Origin: a virus
Virus record (IMG/VR): IMGVR_UViG_3300020470_000583
Span: 1 to 20,554 of that record
Length of the DNA: 20,554 nucleotides
Direction: 5' to 3' (one strand)
The notes beneath the pieces were generated by a model. That model did no database searches, was not told where the DNA came from, and was given only the letters and a program-made list of their open reading frames with translations. How positions within the stretch are numbered: position 1 is the stretch's first letter; every line of letters starts with the position of its first letter. The position numbers and the translations under genes were made by a program. This document shows positions 2,191 through 18,307 of this stretch, piece after piece.

Positions 2191-2622
2191 ATGGCAAGTT
2201 TTACTAAAGTAAATGACTTTGTGGTCAATCTAGCTAATACGATGGATTTAAACGGAGATACGCTAAAAGTAGCTCTTTGTAATACTGATCCAACGGCAGG
2301 AACAAATGCGGCAGCGGATGGAAATGGCATATTAGCCAATGTCACCGAAATAAATTACGCAAACTTATCTTCCAGAACATTACAGAATGTCACAAGCACA
2401 CAAACCTCTGGCACTTATAAATTATCTGCGGATGATTTAGTTTTAACAGCGTCAGGTGGTTCGGTTGCAGCATTTCGATACGTTGTAATTTATGATGACA
2501 CACCGTCATCGCCAGCCGATCCTCTAATTGGTTATTACGATTACGGTTCGTCTTTAACACTGAACGATGGCGATACGTTTACAATAGATATTGGAACAAA
2601 CGGTATCTTAACACTGACATAG
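2191..2622 (+). CDS. Conserved beta-rich virion structural protein
   Basis: This 143-residue protein is rich in Thr, Ser, Asn and Asp with alternating hydrophobics. It begins MASFTKVNDFVVNLAN and contains LKVALCNTDP, DGNGILANVTEINYANLSSRTL, SGTYKLSADDLVLTASGGSVAAFRYVVIYDDT and PLIGYYDYGSSLTLNDGDTFTIDI. I remember closely similar proteins in many phage structural modules, with unknown exact role; decoration, adaptor-associated or tail positions are all possible. The ATG follows the adaptor stop directly and the gene is followed by a strong ribosome-binding site (TAGGAG) for the fibre gene. The structural assignment rests on neighbours and composition. Confidence 0.7.
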   Translation: MASFTKVNDFVVNLANTMDLNGDTLKVALCNTDPTAGTNAAADGNGILANVTEINYANLSSRTLQNVTSTQTSGTYKLSADDLVLTASGGSVAAFRYVVIYDDTPSSPADPLIGYYDYGSSLTLNDGDTFTIDIGTNGILTLT

Positions 2623-2634
2623 TAGGAGAGCGTC

Positions 2635-3684
2635 ATGGCAAAACTTTTTAACAGAGCCAAAATGACGACAAGCACTACTGGAACAGGAACCGTGACTTTG
2701 GGTTCTGCTTCTGTCGGCTTCCAATCTTTTGCTGATGCTGGTGTTTCGAATAGTGATGTTGTCCAATATGTAATAGAAGAGGGAGCCAACTTCGAAATTG
2801 GAACAGGCACATATTCCAGTAGTGGTACTTCTCTGACAAGAACGCCCACGGAAAGCAGTAATAGCAACAACGCAATTACTTTAGCTGGAAATGCTACTGT
2901 GTCGGTCACTGCTGTTCACTCAGACTTTAATGTTCTACAGCACGAAGGTTCTACAAAAGTTGCGGTATCTGCGACAGGTGCATCTGTAACTGGAAACTTG
3001 TCTGTTTCTGGTACAATTCCTGCTGGTCAGCTTACTGGTGCAATGCCAGCTATTGATGGTTCAGCATTGACAGGCATTCAGGGTATTCCTAGCGGTGCTA
3101 TCATGATGTGGAACGGCACAAATGCAAACATCCCGTCAGGTTTTGTTTTATGCGATGGCAGCAACGGAACTCCTGACTTAACAGATAAATTTATATTAGG
3201 TCGTGGATCAAGCAGTAACTCTGGAAATTCTGGTGGTGCTAACACTGTTACTTTGGCAGAAGGTAACTTGCCAAGCCACTCACATGGTGCTGGTAATTAT
3301 GTGACAAGTAACACTGGCGCACACTCACATACTTTAAGTGGTAATACTAATAACACTGGCGGTCACAGTCATAATACAAACAACACTGGTAACCACTCAC
3401 ACAATACTCTTATTTATGGTGCAGGAAATACAAGATATTTTTTGACCGCTGGGCTTACCTCTAATTATGCAAGTAACAATGTTTTTGCTGGCACAAGCAA
3501 TACTGGGGGCCATAGCCACAACACAAATAACGCTGGTAATCACAGTCATAACGTTGGTGGAAATACAAGTAATACTGGAAACCATTCCCACAACGTTTCT
3601 GGAAATAGTGGCAATGTTGGTAGCGGTTCTGCGCTCACTATCACACCAATTCATTTTACATTGGCGTTTATAATGAAAACCTAA
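2635..3684 (+). CDS. Tail fibre with collar domain and HxH metal motifs
   Basis: This 349-residue protein is probably a receptor-binding fibre. Residues 1-110 form a beta-rich attachment region. Residues about 151-191 (SGAIMMWNG, PSGFVLCDGSNGTPDLTDKFILGRG) match the phage tail collar domain of T4 gp12-type fibres. After this come seven HxH motifs at His 215/217, 230/232, 244/246, 254/256, 293/295, 303/305 and 317/319, set in Asn/Thr/Gly-rich sequence. In T4 gp37, HxH motifs of three chains together bind a row of iron ions in the fibre tip; the same trimeric metal-bound needle is a reasonable model here. The end (ITPIHFTLAFIMKT) is the usual collar-fibre C terminus. The gene has a clear AGGAG site before ATG 2635. 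The 38-residue stretch between the fourth and fifth HxH could be the exposed receptor tip. Confidence 0.88.
   Translation: MAKLFNRAKMTTSTTGTGTVTLGSASVGFQSFADAGVSNSDVVQYVIEEGANFEIGTGTYSSSGTSLTRTPTESSNSNNAITLAGNATVSVTAVHSDFNVLQHEGSTKVAVSATGASVTGNLSVSGTIPAGQLTGAMPAIDGSALTGIQGIPSGAIMMWNGTNANIPSGFVLCDGSNGTPDLTDKFILGRGSSSNSGNSGGANTVTLAEGNLPSHSHGAGNYVTSNTGAHSHTLSGNTNNTGGHSHNTNNTGNHSHNTLIYGAGNTRYFLTAGLTSNYASNNVFAGTSNTGGHSHNTNNAGNHSHNVGGNTSNTGNHSHNVSGNSGNVGSGSALTITPIHFTLAFIMKT
3331..3600 (+). repeat. HSHN-coding repeats in fibre gene
   Basis: Short imperfect repeats of the form AAYACTGG..CAYAGYCAYAAY encode TGGHSHN or TGNHSHN units within the fibre gene. They lie on both sides of a repeat-free stretch around 3405-3495. 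Such repeats can change copy number by recombination and thereby alter needle length. Confidence 0.6.
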
Positions 3685-3685
3685 T

Positions 3686-4378
3686 ATGGCACAAAAAGTA
3701 AAATTTCATGCTTCCCAAGAAGTGCTAGACGCATATCCGCATCCATATCCTTCTGTAAAAAACTTACCAGATTGGTTTAAAAATTTACCGCCATCATTGG
3801 ATAGTCACCCTGCAAATGGCTCTGTCAAAAGATGTATTCCGTTCTTAGAGGCTTGTAATCAAGGTTTTATTATTCCTTTCTATTGTGATGTTTTTGTTCA
3901 TGCAGATGCTGAAAAAATAGATTTCGAGTTTGCTGAGAAAAATCTTTGCGATGGAATGTCACCACATTCTAAAGAGCAAGTTGAAGGGCATCCATTTGAA
4001 AATTTTAAATATGGAAAAGTGCCTCTTAAATGGCACAATCCTTGGGTTATACAAACGCCAAAAGGTTATAGCTGTTATTTTGTATCTCCATTTAATAGAC
4101 TAGAAGATAGATTTAAACTTTTTGATGGTGTTGTGGATACTGATAATTATTATAATAATATAAATTTTCCGTTTATATGGACGGCTGGAGAAGGTGAATA
4201 TTTAATAGAAAAAGGCACACCTATGGTGCAAGTGATACCGTTTAAAAGAGATACTATAAAGCATGAGGTCGGTGTGATGGACAACAGAAAAAGAAATAAA
4301 ATTAATAATAAATTACAAACACTTTTTAACAATAAGTACAGACGTTTGTTTTGGCATAAAACGGAGAAAGAAAGATGA
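3686..4378 (+). CDS. DUF6065-like protein in tail module
   Basis: This 230-residue soluble protein has no signal peptide or membrane segment. Recognisable segments are YPHPYPSVKNLPDWFKNLPP (residues 17-36), a SVKRCIPFLEACNQGFIIPFYCDVFV stretch (residues 47-72) and KWHNPWVIQTPKGYSCYFVSPFN in the centre, then FPFIWTAGEGEYLIEKGTPMVQVIPFKRD and a basic tail. The P..LPDWFK...KRC.PFL.A...G..IP layout is what I remember of DUF6065 proteins, found in phages and bacteria with no known activity. It begins two bases after the fibre stop and overlaps the next gene by ATGA, so it is part of the tail operon; an enzyme that modifies the fibre, the host surface or a small molecule cannot be told apart. Conserved Trp, Cys and His residues make an enzymatic role plausible (inference). 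Confidence 0.6.
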   Translation: MAQKVKFHASQEVLDAYPHPYPSVKNLPDWFKNLPPSLDSHPANGSVKRCIPFLEACNQGFIIPFYCDVFVHADAEKIDFEFAEKNLCDGMSPHSKEQVEGHPFENFKYGKVPLKWHNPWVIQTPKGYSCYFVSPFNRLEDRFKLFDGVVDTDNYYNNINFPFIWTAGEGEYLIEKGTPMVQVIPFKRDTIKHEVGVMDNRKRNKINNKLQTLFNNKYRRLFWHKTEKER

Positions 4379-4716
4379 CAGTTAAAGCACTTGCATTATG
4401 GACTACTGGCAAAGTATCCATACAGATAGACGGTGAAGAGTATATAGCAGAAATTACTCACCCTGCATTTTCAACAGAGCATCAAACTGCGTTGGCAGCT
4501 ATGAAAAATAGCCTACAAGCAGATGGCGCATCTGAAATTTTTATAGAAGAACATCCGCATGAAAGTTTTATTCATAAAATAATAAATGGGAAAAATCACA
4601 CGTCTGATAATGTAAATTCTTATCAAGTTTTTGTTGATTTAAGAAAATATGCGGATGATTTGAAAAATTATGAGGATGTAGGTAGTATCCCAGACGATAT
4701 TGATATTGGAGATTAA
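4375..4716 (+). CDS. Hypothetical acidic protein
   Basis: This 113-residue acidic protein is not recognised. The start (MTVKALALWTTGKVSIQIDGEEYIAEITHP) predicts a few beta strands, the middle a helix (TEHQTALAAMKNSLQADG), and the end is Asp/Glu-rich (DDLKNYEDVGSIPDDIDIGD). It overlaps the preceding gene by ATGA (4375-4378), so translation is probably coupled. No membrane segment or signal peptide is seen. Because it lies between the DUF6065-like gene and a repeat protein in the tail module, it could be a partner or chaperone of either, but nothing in the sequence says which. Confidence 0.7.
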   Translation: MTVKALALWTTGKVSIQIDGEEYIAEITHPAFSTEHQTALAAMKNSLQADGASEIFIEEHPHESFIHKIINGKNHTSDNVNSYQVFVDLRKYADDLKNYEDVGSIPDDIDIGD

Positions 4717-4719
4717 TCT

Positions 4720-5346
4720 ATGACGATTGCATCACAACCGATAGCTGGTGGCCCAATAGCATCAAGTGGCGGTGCGAATTATGCAATGTCCGTTACAAGC
4801 GGTACGTTTACGCTTTCGATGCAAGGTGCTGCTAAACTTATTACAGACACTTATCCAAGCGGCACATTTGTTTTAAGTGGGCAACCAATAGGGTTTAGAG
4901 AAGAGTATGCTTATCCAATTCAAAGCGGAACCTTTACGCTAACTGGTCAACCAACAACTGCATCTATTGGTAAAGGTATATTCTTAGAGCCTATTGGCAC
5001 ATTTGCATCGACAGGTCATGCCGTAAGTTTTCAGAAAAATTTAAGCCCAGATGCACAAGTAGGCGTGTTTACGTTAACTGGGCAAGATCAAACTTATGCA
5101 ATCGACATATCAATTATACCACCAGCCGCTACGTTTACGCTAACTGGTAATGAAGTAATTTTTGGTTTTGATATTGATGCAGAAACAGGAACATTTGCGT
5201 TAACTGGACAAAGTGCTGCATTGCGGCATGGAAGAACCATATCAATACCAGATGCACAAGCATATACTTATCAAGGATACGAAGTAAAATTTAGAGGTTG
5301 GTTTAGTCCGTTTGTTCCACCAGCAATATGGACGGATGCGGCTTAA
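4720..5346 (+). CDS. Seven-repeat GTFTLTGQ beta protein
   Basis: This 208-residue protein is built almost entirely of seven repeats with the core G-[TV]-F-[TAV]-L-[TS]-G-[QN]. The conserved Phe residues fall at positions 30, 50, 72, 95, 117, 139 and 159, so the period is 20-23 residues. Between the cores lie variable segments of about 14 residues with alternating hydrophobics. The likely fold is a beta solenoid or stacked hairpins, typical of phage fibres, tail spikes or capsid decorations; none of these is proved. The last 40 residues (AQAYTYQGYEVKFRGWFSPFVPPAIWTDAA in outline) differ and may be the docking end. I recall similar repeat proteins in marine phage contigs, with no function known. 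A GGAG site lies about 9 bases before ATG 4720. Confidence 0.78.
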   Translation: MTIASQPIAGGPIASSGGANYAMSVTSGTFTLSMQGAAKLITDTYPSGTFVLSGQPIGFREEYAYPIQSGTFTLTGQPTTASIGKGIFLEPIGTFASTGHAVSFQKNLSPDAQVGVFTLTGQDQTYAIDISIIPPAATFTLTGNEVIFGFDIDAETGTFALTGQSAALRHGRTISIPDAQAYTYQGYEVKFRGWFSPFVPPAIWTDAA

Positions 5347-5377
5347 ACTGGTATGCTAAGTAAAATAGGAGATTAAA

Positions 5378-6148
5378 ATGGCTATATCGATTACTAAGCC
5401 TGTCGTGGGCGGTGACGAAAACACATGGGGAACAAAATTAAATACAGCCCTTGATGTTATTGTAGACGCTTCTAATGGAACAAGCGGCACTATTGCCCCA
5501 GATTTAAGCACACTTACCATTAACAGCACTAACGTTACAGCTACGGCAGCAGAATTAAATGTTGTTGATGGCGATACCGCTGCAACAGCTACTACTGTCG
5601 TAGGTGCGGATCGTGTTGTTTTTAATGACAACGGCACTATGAAACAAGTAAGTCTTGCTGACATAAATACATATATTCAAAGCCAAGCTGCGGCTGGTGG
5701 TAATGGTCAAATCACGATTAGTGCTGGAAATGCCATAACTGGGGGTGGTACTTTTACAGTAAATCAGGCAGGCAATAGTACCGTCACTTTAGACCATCAA
5801 GATACTTCAAGCCAAAGCAGTGTAAACAATAGTGGACAAACGTTTATTCAGGATATAACGCTCGACACATATGGACACGTTACTGGTATTAACTCAGCAA
5901 CAGCCTCAAGTGGCGTAACTTTTCTTGCGAGTGGAACGCAATCAGCAAGTTCATCTGGCGGTGGTAATTTTACTATAAGCACTGGTGTAGCTAATAAAAG
6001 TTTCTTAATTAGGCCAACTTTTTATAGCAGTAACTTGTCAGGAGCAGGGCCATTTTTTGGAACTACGGACGGTAGCGGCAACATCTCGGCACAAGTTTCG
6101 GCTGTTGGTAATAACCAAAGTTTTACTGTGTCATATGTAGTATTTTAA
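5378..6148 (+). CDS. Tail fibre-like structural protein
   Basis: This 256-residue protein starts MAISITKPVVGGDENTWGTKLNTALD, the N-terminal pattern (TKP..GGDxNTWGxxLNTALD) I associate with marine phage fibre and appendage proteins. It is followed by TINSTNVTATAAELNVVDGD, a TAAELN-type fibre repeat, then a Gly/Thr/Asn-rich middle with a DTYGHVTGINSATAS element, often seen near the C-terminal part of fibre shafts, and a hydrophobic beta-rich end. There is no collar domain or HxH motif, so it probably forms a different fibre or a baseplate attachment from the 2635 protein. AGGAG at 5366-5370 serves ATG 5378. It precedes a chaperone-like gene, the usual order for fibre and assembly factor. Confidence 0.78.
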   Translation: MAISITKPVVGGDENTWGTKLNTALDVIVDASNGTSGTIAPDLSTLTINSTNVTATAAELNVVDGDTAATATTVVGADRVVFNDNGTMKQVSLADINTYIQSQAAAGGNGQITISAGNAITGGGTFTVNQAGNSTVTLDHQDTSSQSSVNNSGQTFIQDITLDTYGHVTGINSATASSGVTFLASGTQSASSSGGGNFTISTGVANKSFLIRPTFYSSNLSGAGPFFGTTDGSGNISAQVSAVGNNQSFTVSYVVF

Positions 6149-6564: not shown

Positions 6565-8394
6565 ATGCCATTAGTGCCTTTAAAATTACAAGCAGGGTTT
6601 TACCGCAACGGCACAGAATTTGACGCTAGTAATAGATGGCGTGATGGAAGCCTTGTTAGATGGCGAGATGGTTCACTGCGTCCGATTGGCGGATGGCAAG
6701 CGTTTAAATCTGGTTTTTGCACAAATCCAGTGAGAGGATCACACGCTTGGGAAAGTAACGCAGGAACTGCTTACTTTGCTGGCGGCAGCTATAATGAACT
6801 TATAGCCATGACAGGCGCAGGGGTAACTTATGATATAACGCCAACGGTTCTATCGGCTGGTCGTGAGGATGCTGCACTAAATTTAGGTGCTGGTGGTGGT
6901 TTTTACGGCATTGGGTATTACGGCACTCCAAGACCATCAACAGGAACTTATTCTGAGGCAACATCATGGTCGCTTGATAACTTTGGTGAATATTTGCTTG
7001 GGGTTCATTTTGATACAGGAACTTTAGTAGAGTGGCAACTTGGATCGTCAGCCGTTGCAGTTCCAGTAGCAAATGCGCCAACTAATAATCTTGGATTAGT
7101 CGTGACCGAAGAGCGATTTGTTTTTCTTTTAGGTGCTGGTGGAAACCCACGCAGAGTGGCTTTCTCAGATAAAGAAAATAATACAATCTGGACACCAGCG
7201 GCAACAAATGAAGCTGGAGACATTGACCTTCAGACAAGCGGTCAAATTATGCAGGGCATAAAAACAAGAGGTCAGACGCTAATAATAACCGACACTGACG
7301 CATTCTCAGCAAAATACATTGGCCCACCATACGTTTATGGTTTTGATCGTGTTGGTACTTCGTGCGGTGCAGTTTCTAGAATGAGTGCAGTAGATACAGA
7401 TGTCGGTGCTTTTTGGATGGGTCAAAATGGCTTTTTTACTTTTGATGGTAACAGGGTCAGAGAGCTTCCTTGTGAGGTTCATGATTATGTTTTTGATGAT
7501 TTGAATGTAAACCAACAATCTAAAATATGGGGATTTAGTAATGTTGAGTTTAGCGAAATCTGGTGGTTTTACCCATCTGGTAGTAGCTTGGAGATAGACA
7601 GATATGTTGCTTATGACATACTTGAAAACCATTGGCTGATAGGTAATCTATCACGAACATCTGGCGTACCAAGGGGAGTTTTTAGAACGCCGATTATGAC
7701 AGGTGAGTATGCAGCAGAAACAGTAACTTACAATGTGACAGTAGTTTCGGATGGCGGCAATAAATATGCTATTTCAAGTTATTCTGGCTCTGCACCAACA
7801 ATAACTCTTACAAAAGGTAACACATACAAGTTTGATCAATCAGACGCTTCAAACGCCACGCACCCACTTCAGTTTTCTACAACTTCAGATGGTACGCATG
7901 GTGGTGGTTCAGCATATACCACAGGGGTCACAGTAGTCGGAACCGCTGGGCAAACTGGTGCATATGTTCAAATAGTTGTAGCAGATAATGCGCCCGATAC
8001 GCTATATTATTACTGCACACAACACTCAGGCATGGGCGGTACTGCAAATATCAATGGACAAGTAGTTGTTTTTAACCATGAGCAAGGTTTGAACTACGAT
8101 AGCGGTTCTGTTTTTTGTGAAACTGGTCCAGTGTCAATCGGCAATGGTGATAATGTTATGTACGTTACGTCAGTTATACCTGATGAAAAAACTCAAGGTG
8201 ATGTAAATATGACTTTTAAAACAAGGCTTCATCCTAACGGTTCAGAATCAACATTTGGTCCATTTGTTCCTTCAAATCCTACAGACGCTAGATTTAGTGG
8301 AAGACAAGTAAGAATGAAGGTAGAGGGAGTTAAGGCTGCAAAATGGCGTGTGGGAACTATGCGTTTAGAAACAAGGGTTGGAGGTACTAGATAA
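6565..8394 (+). CDS. Nozzle / DNA-stabilisation protein with cupredoxin-like insert
   Basis: This 609-residue protein looks like the P22 gp10/SU10-nozzle type of tail protein that closes the conduit beneath the adaptor. The N terminus (LQAGFYRNGTEFDASNRWRDGSLVRWRDGSLRPIGGWQ in outline) and the C-terminal TQGDVNMTFKTRLHPNGSE and RFSGRQVRMKVEG segments are typical of that family as I remember it. Residues about 386-500 look different: YNVTVVSDGG, LTKGNTYKFDQSDASNATHPLQFS and TLYYYCTQHSGMGG, which resemble a small blue-copper (cupredoxin/plastocyanin-like) domain. His433, Cys484, His487 and Met490 would be the four copper ligands. The domain sits between RGVFRTPIM and VVVFNHEQGLNY, so it appears inserted as an exposed module. 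A TTAGGAG site overlaps the preceding stop. Nozzle: confident in type; copper binding: inference. Confidence 0.82.
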   Translation: MPLVPLKLQAGFYRNGTEFDASNRWRDGSLVRWRDGSLRPIGGWQAFKSGFCTNPVRGSHAWESNAGTAYFAGGSYNELIAMTGAGVTYDITPTVLSAGREDAALNLGAGGGFYGIGYYGTPRPSTGTYSEATSWSLDNFGEYLLGVHFDTGTLVEWQLGSSAVAVPVANAPTNNLGLVVTEERFVFLLGAGGNPRRVAFSDKENNTIWTPAATNEAGDIDLQTSGQIMQGIKTRGQTLIITDTDAFSAKYIGPPYVYGFDRVGTSCGAVSRMSAVDTDVGAFWMGQNGFFTFDGNRVRELPCEVHDYVFDDLNVNQQSKIWGFSNVEFSEIWWFYPSGSSLEIDRYVAYDILENHWLIGNLSRTSGVPRGVFRTPIMTGEYAAETVTYNVTVVSDGGNKYAISSYSGSAPTITLTKGNTYKFDQSDASNATHPLQFSTTSDGTHGGGSAYTTGVTVVGTAGQTGAYVQIVVADNAPDTLYYYCTQHSGMGGTANINGQVVVFNHEQGLNYDSGSVFCETGPVSIGNGDNVMYVTSVIPDEKTQGDVNMTFKTRLHPNGSESTFGPFVPSNPTDARFSGRQVRMKVEGVKAAKWRVGTMRLETRVGGTR

Positions 8395-13985: not shown

Positions 13986-16088
13986 ATGGAACTAAAAGCC
14001 AAAACAGAACTAGAGATAGAAAGCATTGTTCAGGCCGCTATTGATGACGCTGTAGACTTTGTTGAGAGCGAAATATCTGAGGACAGAATTAGAGCGCAAC
14101 GCTACTACGATGGTGAGGTAGATATAGGCTATGAAGATGGGCGCAGTAAAGTAGTCGCTACTAAAGTTCGGGATACGGTTCGAGCTATTAAGCCTTCATT
14201 AATGCGTGTGTTTTTAAGCACCGCAAGACCAGTTGAGTTTATGCCTCATGGTCCAGAAGATGTAAATATGGCAGAGCAAGCAACTGATTACGTTCACTAT
14301 GAGTTCCAACGTAGCAATGGTTATAGGGTGTTGAACGATGCGTTTCACGATGCGCTAATTAAAAAGCAAGGTATAGTCAAAGCTTACTGGGAAGAAATGC
14401 CAGAAGCAGAGATTTATACTTATACAAACTTATCTGATGATGAATATACGTTTTTAGTGCAGGATGATGATGTAACTGTTTTAGAGCATACCGTTGAACA
14501 AGAAATGAGTATGGATGAGCAAGGCGTTGAAATAGAAATGCCTGTTCATTCTGCAAAAGTGTCGAGAAAAATGTATGCTGGTTGTTTAAAAATAGAAAGC
14601 ATACCTCCAGAGGATTTTTTTGTAGATAGAAATTGCAGAACTTTAGAGGATGCTCATGTTATTGTTCATAGAACAGAAATGAGGGCTAGTGATCTTATTT
14701 CTATGGGCTTTGATGCTGAAGAAGTTTTAAAACTTGATAGTTTTGATGCAGGCACAGAAATGACTGAAGCCGAGCGAACTGAAAGACAGGGCTATACAAG
14801 TGATTTTAATGAAACAAGCTCTGATCCATCTATGAATCAAGTTACTTTAACAGAAGCTTATATGCGGATGGACGTTGATGGAACAGGGGTTGCTGTGTTG
14901 CATAGATTTCTATGCGGTGGAACTAGGTATAAACTGCTAGATTATGAGTTAGCAGATGAATTACCTTTTGCAAAATTTGAAGTAGACCCAGAACCACACA
15001 CATTTTATGGCAGAAGTATTGCTGATCTAGTTATAGATGATCAGGACGCAGCAACCTCTATTTTAAGAGGTATATTAGACAATGTAGCTATGACTAATAA
15101 TCCTAGAGTTGGTATAGTCGATGGCGCAGTAAATATAGACGATGTTTTGAATAACGAAATAGGTGCTATTGTTCGTATGCGTCAGGCAGGCGCAGTGCAG
15201 GATTTAGCTGTGCCATTTACAGCAGGCCAAACGCTAGGCGCACTAACCTATCTAGATCAGCTTGTAGAGGGCAAGACAGGCGTTACCAAGGCTTCTATGG
15301 GCTTAGACCCTGATGCTATGCAGTCTACAACTAAGGCCGCTGTACAGGCTACTGTGCAAGCAGCAGCAGGGCAAGTAGAAGTGATGGTGCGAAACCTAGC
15401 TGATGGTGCTAGAGACTTGTTTGGCTTAATGTTGAGATTGCTGCAAAAGAACATGGAAGACGGAGCTATGATGCGTATGAATGGACGTTTTCAGCCTGTT
15501 GATCCTAAAGCTTTTGACATAGATATGGACATTAGTATTAATGTTGGGCTTGGCACTGGCAGAGAGGAAGAAAAAACAAACGCTTTAGCTATGGCTCTAC
15601 AGCAGCAAACTATGGTTTATCAAACATATGGCGCTATGAATGGTTTGGTATCTCTAACAAACATCCGTAATACTCTTGCAGACATATTAGCTTCTAGCGG
15701 TATTAGAAACGCAGATCGTTATTTTGCGCCAATTACGCCAGAGATAGAAATGCAATTAATGCAAATGCAACAACAGCAACAAGCTATGTTGGCGCAACAA
15801 GGCCAAGGGCAAGACCCAGCTTCTATGATGGTGCAGGCAGAAGCAATGAAAGCACAAACAAAAGCGCAAGTTGATTTGCAAAGAGCGCAAATGGATGATG
15901 CTAGAAAGCGTGAAGAAATGGCTATGGATGATGATTTAAAACGAGATCAGATGGCGCAAAATCTATATGTTGATGCAGCAAAGACTTTAGGTCAATATGG
16001 ATCAACTGTAGATGTGGCTAAGATTAAGGCAGAGCAAGAAAGAGAGCGGCAAATAAATGATATGACCGCTAGAGCAGCAGGGTTATGA
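13986..16088 (+). CDS. Portal protein, P22/SU10-like
   Basis: This 700-residue protein is the dodecameric portal through which DNA enters and leaves the head. The N-terminal part (EDRIRAQRYYDGEVDIGYEDGRSKVVATKVRDTVRAIKPSLMRVF in outline) is the recognisable start of P22-like portals: a tyrosine-rich YYDG segment followed by a helical V.DTV....PSL.R.F. The middle contains ESIPPEDFFVDR, DQDAATSILRGILDN and GVTKASMGLDPDAMQ, matching stem and crown elements of this family as I remember it. Residues from about 590 are a Gln/Met-rich then charged coiled coil that could form the portal barrel. GAGGAG lies before ATG 13986. The stop overlaps the next start by ATGA. Confidence 0.9.
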   Translation: MELKAKTELEIESIVQAAIDDAVDFVESEISEDRIRAQRYYDGEVDIGYEDGRSKVVATKVRDTVRAIKPSLMRVFLSTARPVEFMPHGPEDVNMAEQATDYVHYEFQRSNGYRVLNDAFHDALIKKQGIVKAYWEEMPEAEIYTYTNLSDDEYTFLVQDDDVTVLEHTVEQEMSMDEQGVEIEMPVHSAKVSRKMYAGCLKIESIPPEDFFVDRNCRTLEDAHVIVHRTEMRASDLISMGFDAEEVLKLDSFDAGTEMTEAERTERQGYTSDFNETSSDPSMNQVTLTEAYMRMDVDGTGVAVLHRFLCGGTRYKLLDYELADELPFAKFEVDPEPHTFYGRSIADLVIDDQDAATSILRGILDNVAMTNNPRVGIVDGAVNIDDVLNNEIGAIVRMRQAGAVQDLAVPFTAGQTLGALTYLDQLVEGKTGVTKASMGLDPDAMQSTTKAAVQATVQAAAGQVEVMVRNLADGARDLFGLMLRLLQKNMEDGAMMRMNGRFQPVDPKAFDIDMDISINVGLGTGREEEKTNALAMALQQQTMVYQTYGAMNGLVSLTNIRNTLADILASSGIRNADRYFAPITPEIEMQLMQMQQQQQAMLAQQGQGQDPASMMVQAEAMKAQTKAQVDLQRAQMDDARKREEMAMDDDLKRDQMAQNLYVDAAKTLGQYGSTVDVAKIKAEQERERQINDMTARAAGL

Positions 16089-17350: not shown

Positions 17351-18307
17351 ATGGCACAACCAGCAAATACCTTTGATAGCTACGATCAGGTAGGTATTAG
17401 AGAAGACTTGAGTGATGTTATAAATAACATTACTCCAGAGGCCACTCCGTTTCACAGTAAGTGTCCTAAAACAACAGCCAACAATACGTTGGTAGAATGG
17501 CAGACTGATACACTTCGTAACAGTGCCGCAAACGCTCATATTGAAGGTGATGCAACTACTGCACAAGCAGCCACTGCAACTGTTCGACTTAACAACCGAA
17601 CACAAATCTTCAAAAATGCGGTAATCGTATCTGACACTGACGAAGGCCTCAATAAAGCTGGAAGGCAGCGTGAGATGGCCTACCAAATTGTAAAAATTGC
17701 CAAAGAGCAAAAATTAGACATTGAAAAAGCTCTATTTGACAATAATGCAAAAGTAGCAGGGAACTCCAGTACTGCGAGAGAGTTGGCAGGCGCACCAGCT
17801 TGGATGACTACAAACGTGAACTTTGTTTCTGCGTCATCTGGTGCTAACCCAACGGGCGATGGTACGGATGCACGAACAGATTCGGGCGCACCTACTGCGT
17901 TTTCACAAGCTAAATTTGATGCTGTTATGCAATCAATTTGGGAAAATGGTGGGGAGCCTGACACTGTGTATCTCAGCGCATTCCAAATGAATGTGGCATT
18001 GGGCTTTACTGGTAACAATAACCAGCGTTCACAAGTGCAAGCATCTGACGAGCGTGTTATCAAAAGTCTCGCAGTATACACGACTCCTTGGGGTACTATT
18101 GAGTTTATGCCCTCGAGGGAGAACAGAAGCCGTGACGTTTTCATCATGCAAGATGATAAGTGGGAGATTGCGACATTGCGTCCAACTAAAAACACTGAGC
18201 TTGCAAAAACTGGTGATAACACTCAGAGACAAATCGTCACTGAGCTTACACTCTGTGCTAAAAATGAAGCTGCAAACGGCATTATTGCCGATAACACAAC
18301 TTCATAA
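17351..18307 (+). CDS. Major capsid protein, SU10 type (DUF5309-like)
   Basis: This 318-residue protein forms the head shell. The N terminus (NTFDSYDQVGIREDLSDVINNITPEATPFHSKCPKTTANNTLVEWQTDTL in outline) is the recognisable start of SU10-type HK97-fold capsid proteins: IREDLSD.I.NI.P..TPF......NT..EWQTD.L. This is followed by EGDA.......R..N.TQIF...V.VSDT, a central domain with DNNAKVAGNSSTARELAGAPAWM, an ENGGEPDTVYLSAFQMN helix-strand unit and a C-terminal WEIATLRPTK.TELAKTGDN..RQIVTELTL. These are typical family features as I remember them. Length is normal for the family. It is preceded by a good AAAGGA site and followed by a perfect stem-loop, as expected for a highly expressed gene. Confidence 0.92.
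   Translation: MAQPANTFDSYDQVGIREDLSDVINNITPEATPFHSKCPKTTANNTLVEWQTDTLRNSAANAHIEGDATTAQAATATVRLNNRTQIFKNAVIVSDTDEGLNKAGRQREMAYQIVKIAKEQKLDIEKALFDNNAKVAGNSSTARELAGAPAWMTTNVNFVSASSGANPTGDGTDARTDSGAPTAFSQAKFDAVMQSIWENGGEPDTVYLSAFQMNVALGFTGNNNQRSQVQASDERVIKSLAVYTTPWGTIEFMPSRENRSRDVFIMQDDKWEIATLRPTKNTELAKTGDNTQRQIVTELTLCAKNEAANGIIADNTTS

Follow-up and report, generated by a model that had tools for sequence, protein, structure and literature searches.

The nozzle gene of a marine phage raises the question of what kind of domain interrupts its coding sequence, whether that domain is likely to hold a metal, and what it might do on a phage tail. The window, the whole 20,554-base stretch that was analysed, is a fragment of a podovirus-like marine phage, in which the following genes were placed:

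2635-3684 of the window: fibre/collar gene
6565..8394, + strand: nozzle (tail stabilisation) protein, 609 amino acids, host of the insert (PHROG 3287, model and PDB matches)
13986-16088 of the window: portal
17351-18307 of the window: major head protein

The interrupted gene encodes a podoviral nozzle protein

The first-pass annotation had named the product of ORF 6565-8394 a nozzle protein, and this identity was confirmed independently by family, structure and profile comparisons. The protein matched PHROG 3287 with an E-value of 1.6e-79, covering residues 7-609. An AlphaFold model of the full protein (pLDDT 88.4) had podoviral nozzles as its best PDB matches, namely those of Pa223 (9nwi_Y, Z 31.4), SU10 (29.4), VP1 (29.2) and P22 (gp10, 26.4), with T7 gp12 also among its Foldseek matches, and a sequence profile of the nozzle reached 9nwi_Y at an E-value of 9.2e-33. 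The model has a platform and propeller core like those of P22 gp10 and T7 gp12. While this core fold is common to the nozzles of P22 (gp10), T7 (gp12), SU10 (gp17) and Pa223, no cupredoxin has been described in any of them; the SU10 nozzle has Ig-like inserts, located between blades 2 and 3, whereas the insert in the window nozzle is cupredoxin-like. The nearest isolate, Octadecabacter Antarctic DB virus 2, has a nozzle 57% identical to that of the window and without the insert.

The domain is a discrete insertion in a continuous nozzle sequence

7711..8067, + strand: inserted domain, nozzle residues about 383-501 (gap in relatives, nested-clade gain)

We aligned nozzle homologues with and without the extra stretch, which resolved it as a discrete insert of residues 383-500. 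In relatives L087-L112, the positions equivalent to residues about 378 and about 502 are joined by a linker, of 4-7 residues in most cases. In these relatives and DB virus 2, the motif GVF-x-x-P runs straight into VY-x-HE, with 4-7 residues between them in most, compared to about 120 residues in the window nozzle and its close relatives. The flanks that had been read as continuous nozzle sequence, RGVFRTPIM and VVVFNHEQGLNY, are indeed joined in insert-free relatives, for example as RGIFRTPIW-ADAGGS-VYDHETGFNY in L100. An assembly chimera or false join was considered and rejected because more than 20 other contigs show the same architecture, their domains being about 61-82% identical.

In a tree of the nozzle core, copies with an HSGM loop form one clade (support 100/100), copies with HGNAM-type loops adjoin it, and three label changes, the minimum possible, account for all insert states. 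Because of this arrangement, the tree indicates that the cupredoxin was gained inside a nested clade of this nozzle lineage. The domain is under purifying selection, with dN/dS below about 0.3 in 10 of 10 pairs (L005 and L006, for example, differ by a dN of 0.09 and a dS of 2.0). Its divergence is also mosaic: between the window and L015, dN was 0.28 in the domain compared to 0.09 and 0.004 in the flanks, while the pattern was reversed between L083 and L049 (0.04 in the domain, 0.22 and 0.16 in the flanks). These values suggest that the domain seems to have been exchanged by recombination. Base composition was uninformative about a foreign origin (GC 0.44 vs 0.42).

Other nozzles in the set carry additional inserts. 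The L017 nozzle (2556-5675) carries a cupredoxin at each of two sites: one copy, with an HGNAM loop, lies within a long insert near residue 170, and the other occupies the usual site. The L113 and L120 nozzles have no cupredoxin; a different insert, roughly 120-150 residues long, interrupts them near residue 160-170, which may be the position of the SU10-like nozzle domains.

The insert is predicted to have a cupredoxin fold

7720..8055, + strand: the cupredoxin fold itself, from its first strand to its last (residues 386-497; model m1095b8b1690a)

A model of the domain alone, built from an alignment of 60 copies, had a pLDDT of 92.9 and a pTM of 0.87 and shows a Greek-key beta sandwich of cupredoxin topology. 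When it was compared to the PDB (Foldseek, VIA-align), the first match was 2dv6_A (Z 10.1, rmsd 2.7 over 103 residues), the nitrite reductase of Hyphomicrobium denitrificans, whose N-terminal type 1 copper domain was matched over the whole domain at 18% identity. The 2dv6 domain differs in being part of a three-domain copper enzyme. Next came factor VIII A domains, whose cupredoxin fold is a related one, followed by two-domain laccases and rusticyanin; pseudoazurin was also among the Foldseek matches. Nearly all of the top solved-structure matches were copper proteins or had a cupredoxin fold, and the few Ig-type chains ranked lower. The earlier proposal of a cupredoxin-like domain at residues about 386-500 was thus borne out by a high-confidence prediction, and a different fold, such as an Ig-like one, was looked for among the structure matches and not found to lead them. 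Based on the model, we consider the insert almost certain to be a cupredoxin in fold.

By sequence, kinship with copper proteins is reached through intermediates. A plain Pfam search of the window protein returned no match, and the window domain scores below the cut-off of PF00127 (Copper-bind). PF00127 was nonetheless the family matched most among 60 members, weakly (17 of 60, best E-value 0.0013), and one relative, L226, scores just above its cut-off in the same region (21.4 vs 21.2 bits). Two small proteins of Prochlorococcus (L249 and L254) are matched by PF00127 (E-values 5.7e-8 and 8.9e-8) and also by the window domain's own profile (29.5 and 38 bits). In hhalign comparisons, the domain family aligned to these proteins with a probability of 97.8, and these in turn aligned to plastocyanin-like proteins at 97.6, with the Cys and second His in register; the direct comparison of the domain family to classic cupredoxins gave 86. 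Searching the PDB by sequence yielded only chance-level matches, pseudoazurin and plastocyanins among them, with E-values of 0.3-1. For the amicyanin family TIGR02657, a single member of 60 matched, short of the cut-off (E-value 0.044), and it was not the window copy.

The putative type 1 copper ligands are nearly invariant

7861..7863, + strand: His433, first putative copper ligand (THPLQF), 222/225 viral copies
7897..7899, + strand: His445 in the conserved GTHGGG loop, 66/72 distinct copies of the first viral set
8014..8016, + strand: Cys484, putative ligand closing the penultimate strand (YYYC), 212/225 viral copies
8023..8025, + strand: His487, putative ligand, 210/225 viral copies
8032..8034, + strand: Met490, putative axial ligand, Met in 207/225 viral copies, Gln in 5 viral and 2 cellular

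Among 60 varied copies, only six columns were invariant: His51, Tyr69, Pro95, Cys102, His105 and Met108 in domain numbering. Four of these six are the proposed ligands, which is unlikely to be due to chance, since a random draw of six from about 108 columns would include those four with a probability of about 3e-6. All four ligands (HCHM) are present in 205 of 225 distinct viral copies and HCHQ in another 5, so that 210 have a type 1 set of His, Cys, His and Met or Gln, in the right order and on the right strands. The 83 cellular copies include 75 with HCHM and 2 with HCHQ. In the model, the first His lies just before the fifth strand (53-56), the Cys ends strand 97-102, and the second His and Met follow in the next loop. 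The placement of His433, Cys484, His487 and Met490 as type 1 ligands therefore held, with positions and topology as expected, and a search of homologues for the loss of these residues instead revealed near-total conservation.

The reading of the ligand loop was correct only in part. Its spacing is C-x2-H-x2-M, as first described, and is found in 200 of 225 viral copies, but the shortening is not a novelty, as amicyanin carries a loop of the same length. Amicyanin, plastocyanin and pseudoazurin (PF00127) share the His...Cys-x2-His-xn-Met series with the window domain; they are periplasmic or thylakoid electron carriers and have Asn, not Pro, after the first His. Asn is usual at this position in plastocyanin and azurin, while Pro is found in 213 of 225 viral copies of the phage domain, so its colour and potential may differ from those of plastocyanin and azurin.

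One explanation for these residues is that the fold serves as a stable, Ig-like spacer or decoration, with the ligands kept for folding (e.g. buried polar packing) and no metal bound in nature. Beta-sandwich decorations are frequent on phage tails, the SU10 nozzles have Ig-like domains, and some copies without the ligands, such as the HDQT and HSSR types, keep the fold signature. However, the ligands are among the most conserved residues, and their losses are clustered rather than single, as most of the 15 viral copies outside the HCHM and HCHQ types lack both the Cys and the second His, or are incomplete. The tolerated axial change is also from Met to Gln, a known alternative axial ligand, as in stellacyanin, and a natural swap at type 1 copper sites. 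A metal-free spacer is therefore unlikely in our view, at perhaps one chance in five. As judged from these alignments, a metal site explains the ligand pattern much better than retention for packing does, and the insert probably binds copper.

The cupredoxin may act as a docking module at the propeller edge

In the SU10 nozzle, the short fibre docks on a three-tryptophan loop at the edge of propeller blade 1 (PMC9509320). The Pa223 nozzle has an extra stretch, LWDDDPNPWDTYTSVW, at the insert point of the window nozzle that is Trp-rich like the SU10 dock, an equivalence that comes from a low-confidence stretch of the Pa223 alignment. By analogy, we infer that the cupredoxin sits where other nozzles have their fibre dock.

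We propose that recombination placed the cupredoxin in an edge hairpin of the nozzle beta-propeller and that, because the nozzle is hexameric, six copies would surround the tail of each virion. Assembly of virions in the copper-poor cytoplasm is a point against copper loading; copper would be acquired probably after lysis, or else during transit of the envelope. The domain could then serve as a metal-stabilised module for adhesion or docking, linking the phage to the host envelope or to some other part of the virion; what it holds would be a common surface ligand or that virion part, and copper would add stability or affinity. As the domain is common to many tail parts and hosts and strongly conserved, such a module would hold something general. 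Diversification for specific receptors was considered and set aside, since strong conservation across phages of different hosts disfavours a host-specific recognition surface. Adhesion or docking is the role that we favour, tentatively and at somewhat less than even odds. Taken as a whole, a cupredoxin with a complete type 1 ligand set, inserted at the propeller edge, likely loaded with copper and possibly active in adhesion or docking, is a reading that we hold with reasonable but not high confidence.

A more specific role would be that of a lure, in which the copper-loaded domain is recognised by outer-membrane copper-uptake proteins of the host, as a counterpart of the 'Ferrojan horse' whose iron version in tail fibres has been discussed (PMC11705849). 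The metal scarcity of the surface ocean and the seven HxH motifs, of iron-binding type, in the fibre/collar gene of the same window would suit this idea. It is doubtful, with odds that we place well below those of the metal-free spacer, as no receptor is known and the domain also occurs on non-tip proteins (amidase-like, baseplate and structural). A role in electron transfer or redox chemistry at the host envelope is less probable again: despite the complete type 1 ligand set and a fold common with electron carriers, the protein has no redox partner or second cofactor domain, and the tail is not linked to an electron chain. Electron transfer by the insert is thus unlikely, and we would be surprised to see it.

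The fibre/collar gene (2635-3684) encodes seven HSH motifs, at residues 215, 230, 244, 254, 293, 303 and 317, and the HxH motif is linked to iron in T4 gp37, which would place two possible kinds of metal module in one tail locus. The insert itself contains no HxH motif. HxH iron-binding tail fibres, such as those of T4 (gp37) and alterophage R22Y, resemble the putative cupredoxin site in being metal modules on phage tails, but they bind iron, are trimeric and have a fold unlike that of a cupredoxin.

The domain is a widespread module of phage tails

The same domain was detected within PHROG 30742, 27200, 693, 677 and 708, with E-values down to 1.3e-22. These are mostly tail fibre and baseplate families, and their descriptions go no further than tail fibre, baseplate or unknown, with no fold or copper site named. 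Marine phages also carry the domain in structural proteins, in a tip protein resembling lambda J and in an amidase-like protein of the virion; in marine bacteria and archaea it occurs in cellular proteins that have cadherin, collagen or PBP domains. The cultured phages S-TIM5, S-B68, P-HM1, S-H9-2, Baldr and Melnitz-3 carry it with ligands intact. The domain is therefore a widespread module, recurrent on phage tail parts, and not a speciality of nozzles.

Several further contexts were seen. SAR11 contigs from single cells encode T7-type tail-fibre genes (PF03906) with a cupredoxin (L181 3714-5474 and L192 3351-5459), from either a prophage or an infecting pelagiphage. A SAR92 protein (L203 4233-5321) joins a phosphatidylethanolamine-binding domain (PF01161) to a cupredoxin. 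Large virion-like proteins (L384 4702-8280, also L372, L381, L385 and L394) contain multiple cupredoxin-like repeats, of which some have Met replaced by Gln and others have lost the site; in the L384 protein these are accompanied by seven CBM5/12 modules.

Some cyanophage records annotate relatives of the domain as immunoglobulin-like (the P-HM1 copy as containing PF07686, an Ig V-set family, probably because its YYYC resembles an Ig motif), and BFVD entry M4QD42 bears the name immunoglobulin domain, but the single Cys of the insert leaves no V-set cysteine pair and thus no canonical Ig disulfide, and with cupredoxins leading the fold matches we give this assignment almost no chance of being right.

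Cupredoxins and decorated phage tails are each well known. Our search of open-access literature, in which absence carries little weight, returned no description of a cupredoxin on phage tails, so the recurrence on phage tails of a cupredoxin module whose type 1 site is intact appears to be new to that literature. Next to the HxH iron fibres, the module would be a putative second type of metal-binding element of phage tails, and it spans nozzles, fibres, baseplates and tips in phages of SAR11, Methylophilales and cyanobacteria. Database entries that are unnamed or annotated as antibody- or Ig-like become a testable biochemical claim, and virion copper is measurable now because cultured phages such as S-TIM5, Baldr, Melnitz-3 and P-HM1 carry the domain. 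It is a long shot, slightly ahead of the copper lure, that many ocean phages display cupredoxins loaded with copper on the tail and exploit the metal when they attach or enter, with copper as part of host recognition; if they do, phages would be part of the marine copper cycle.
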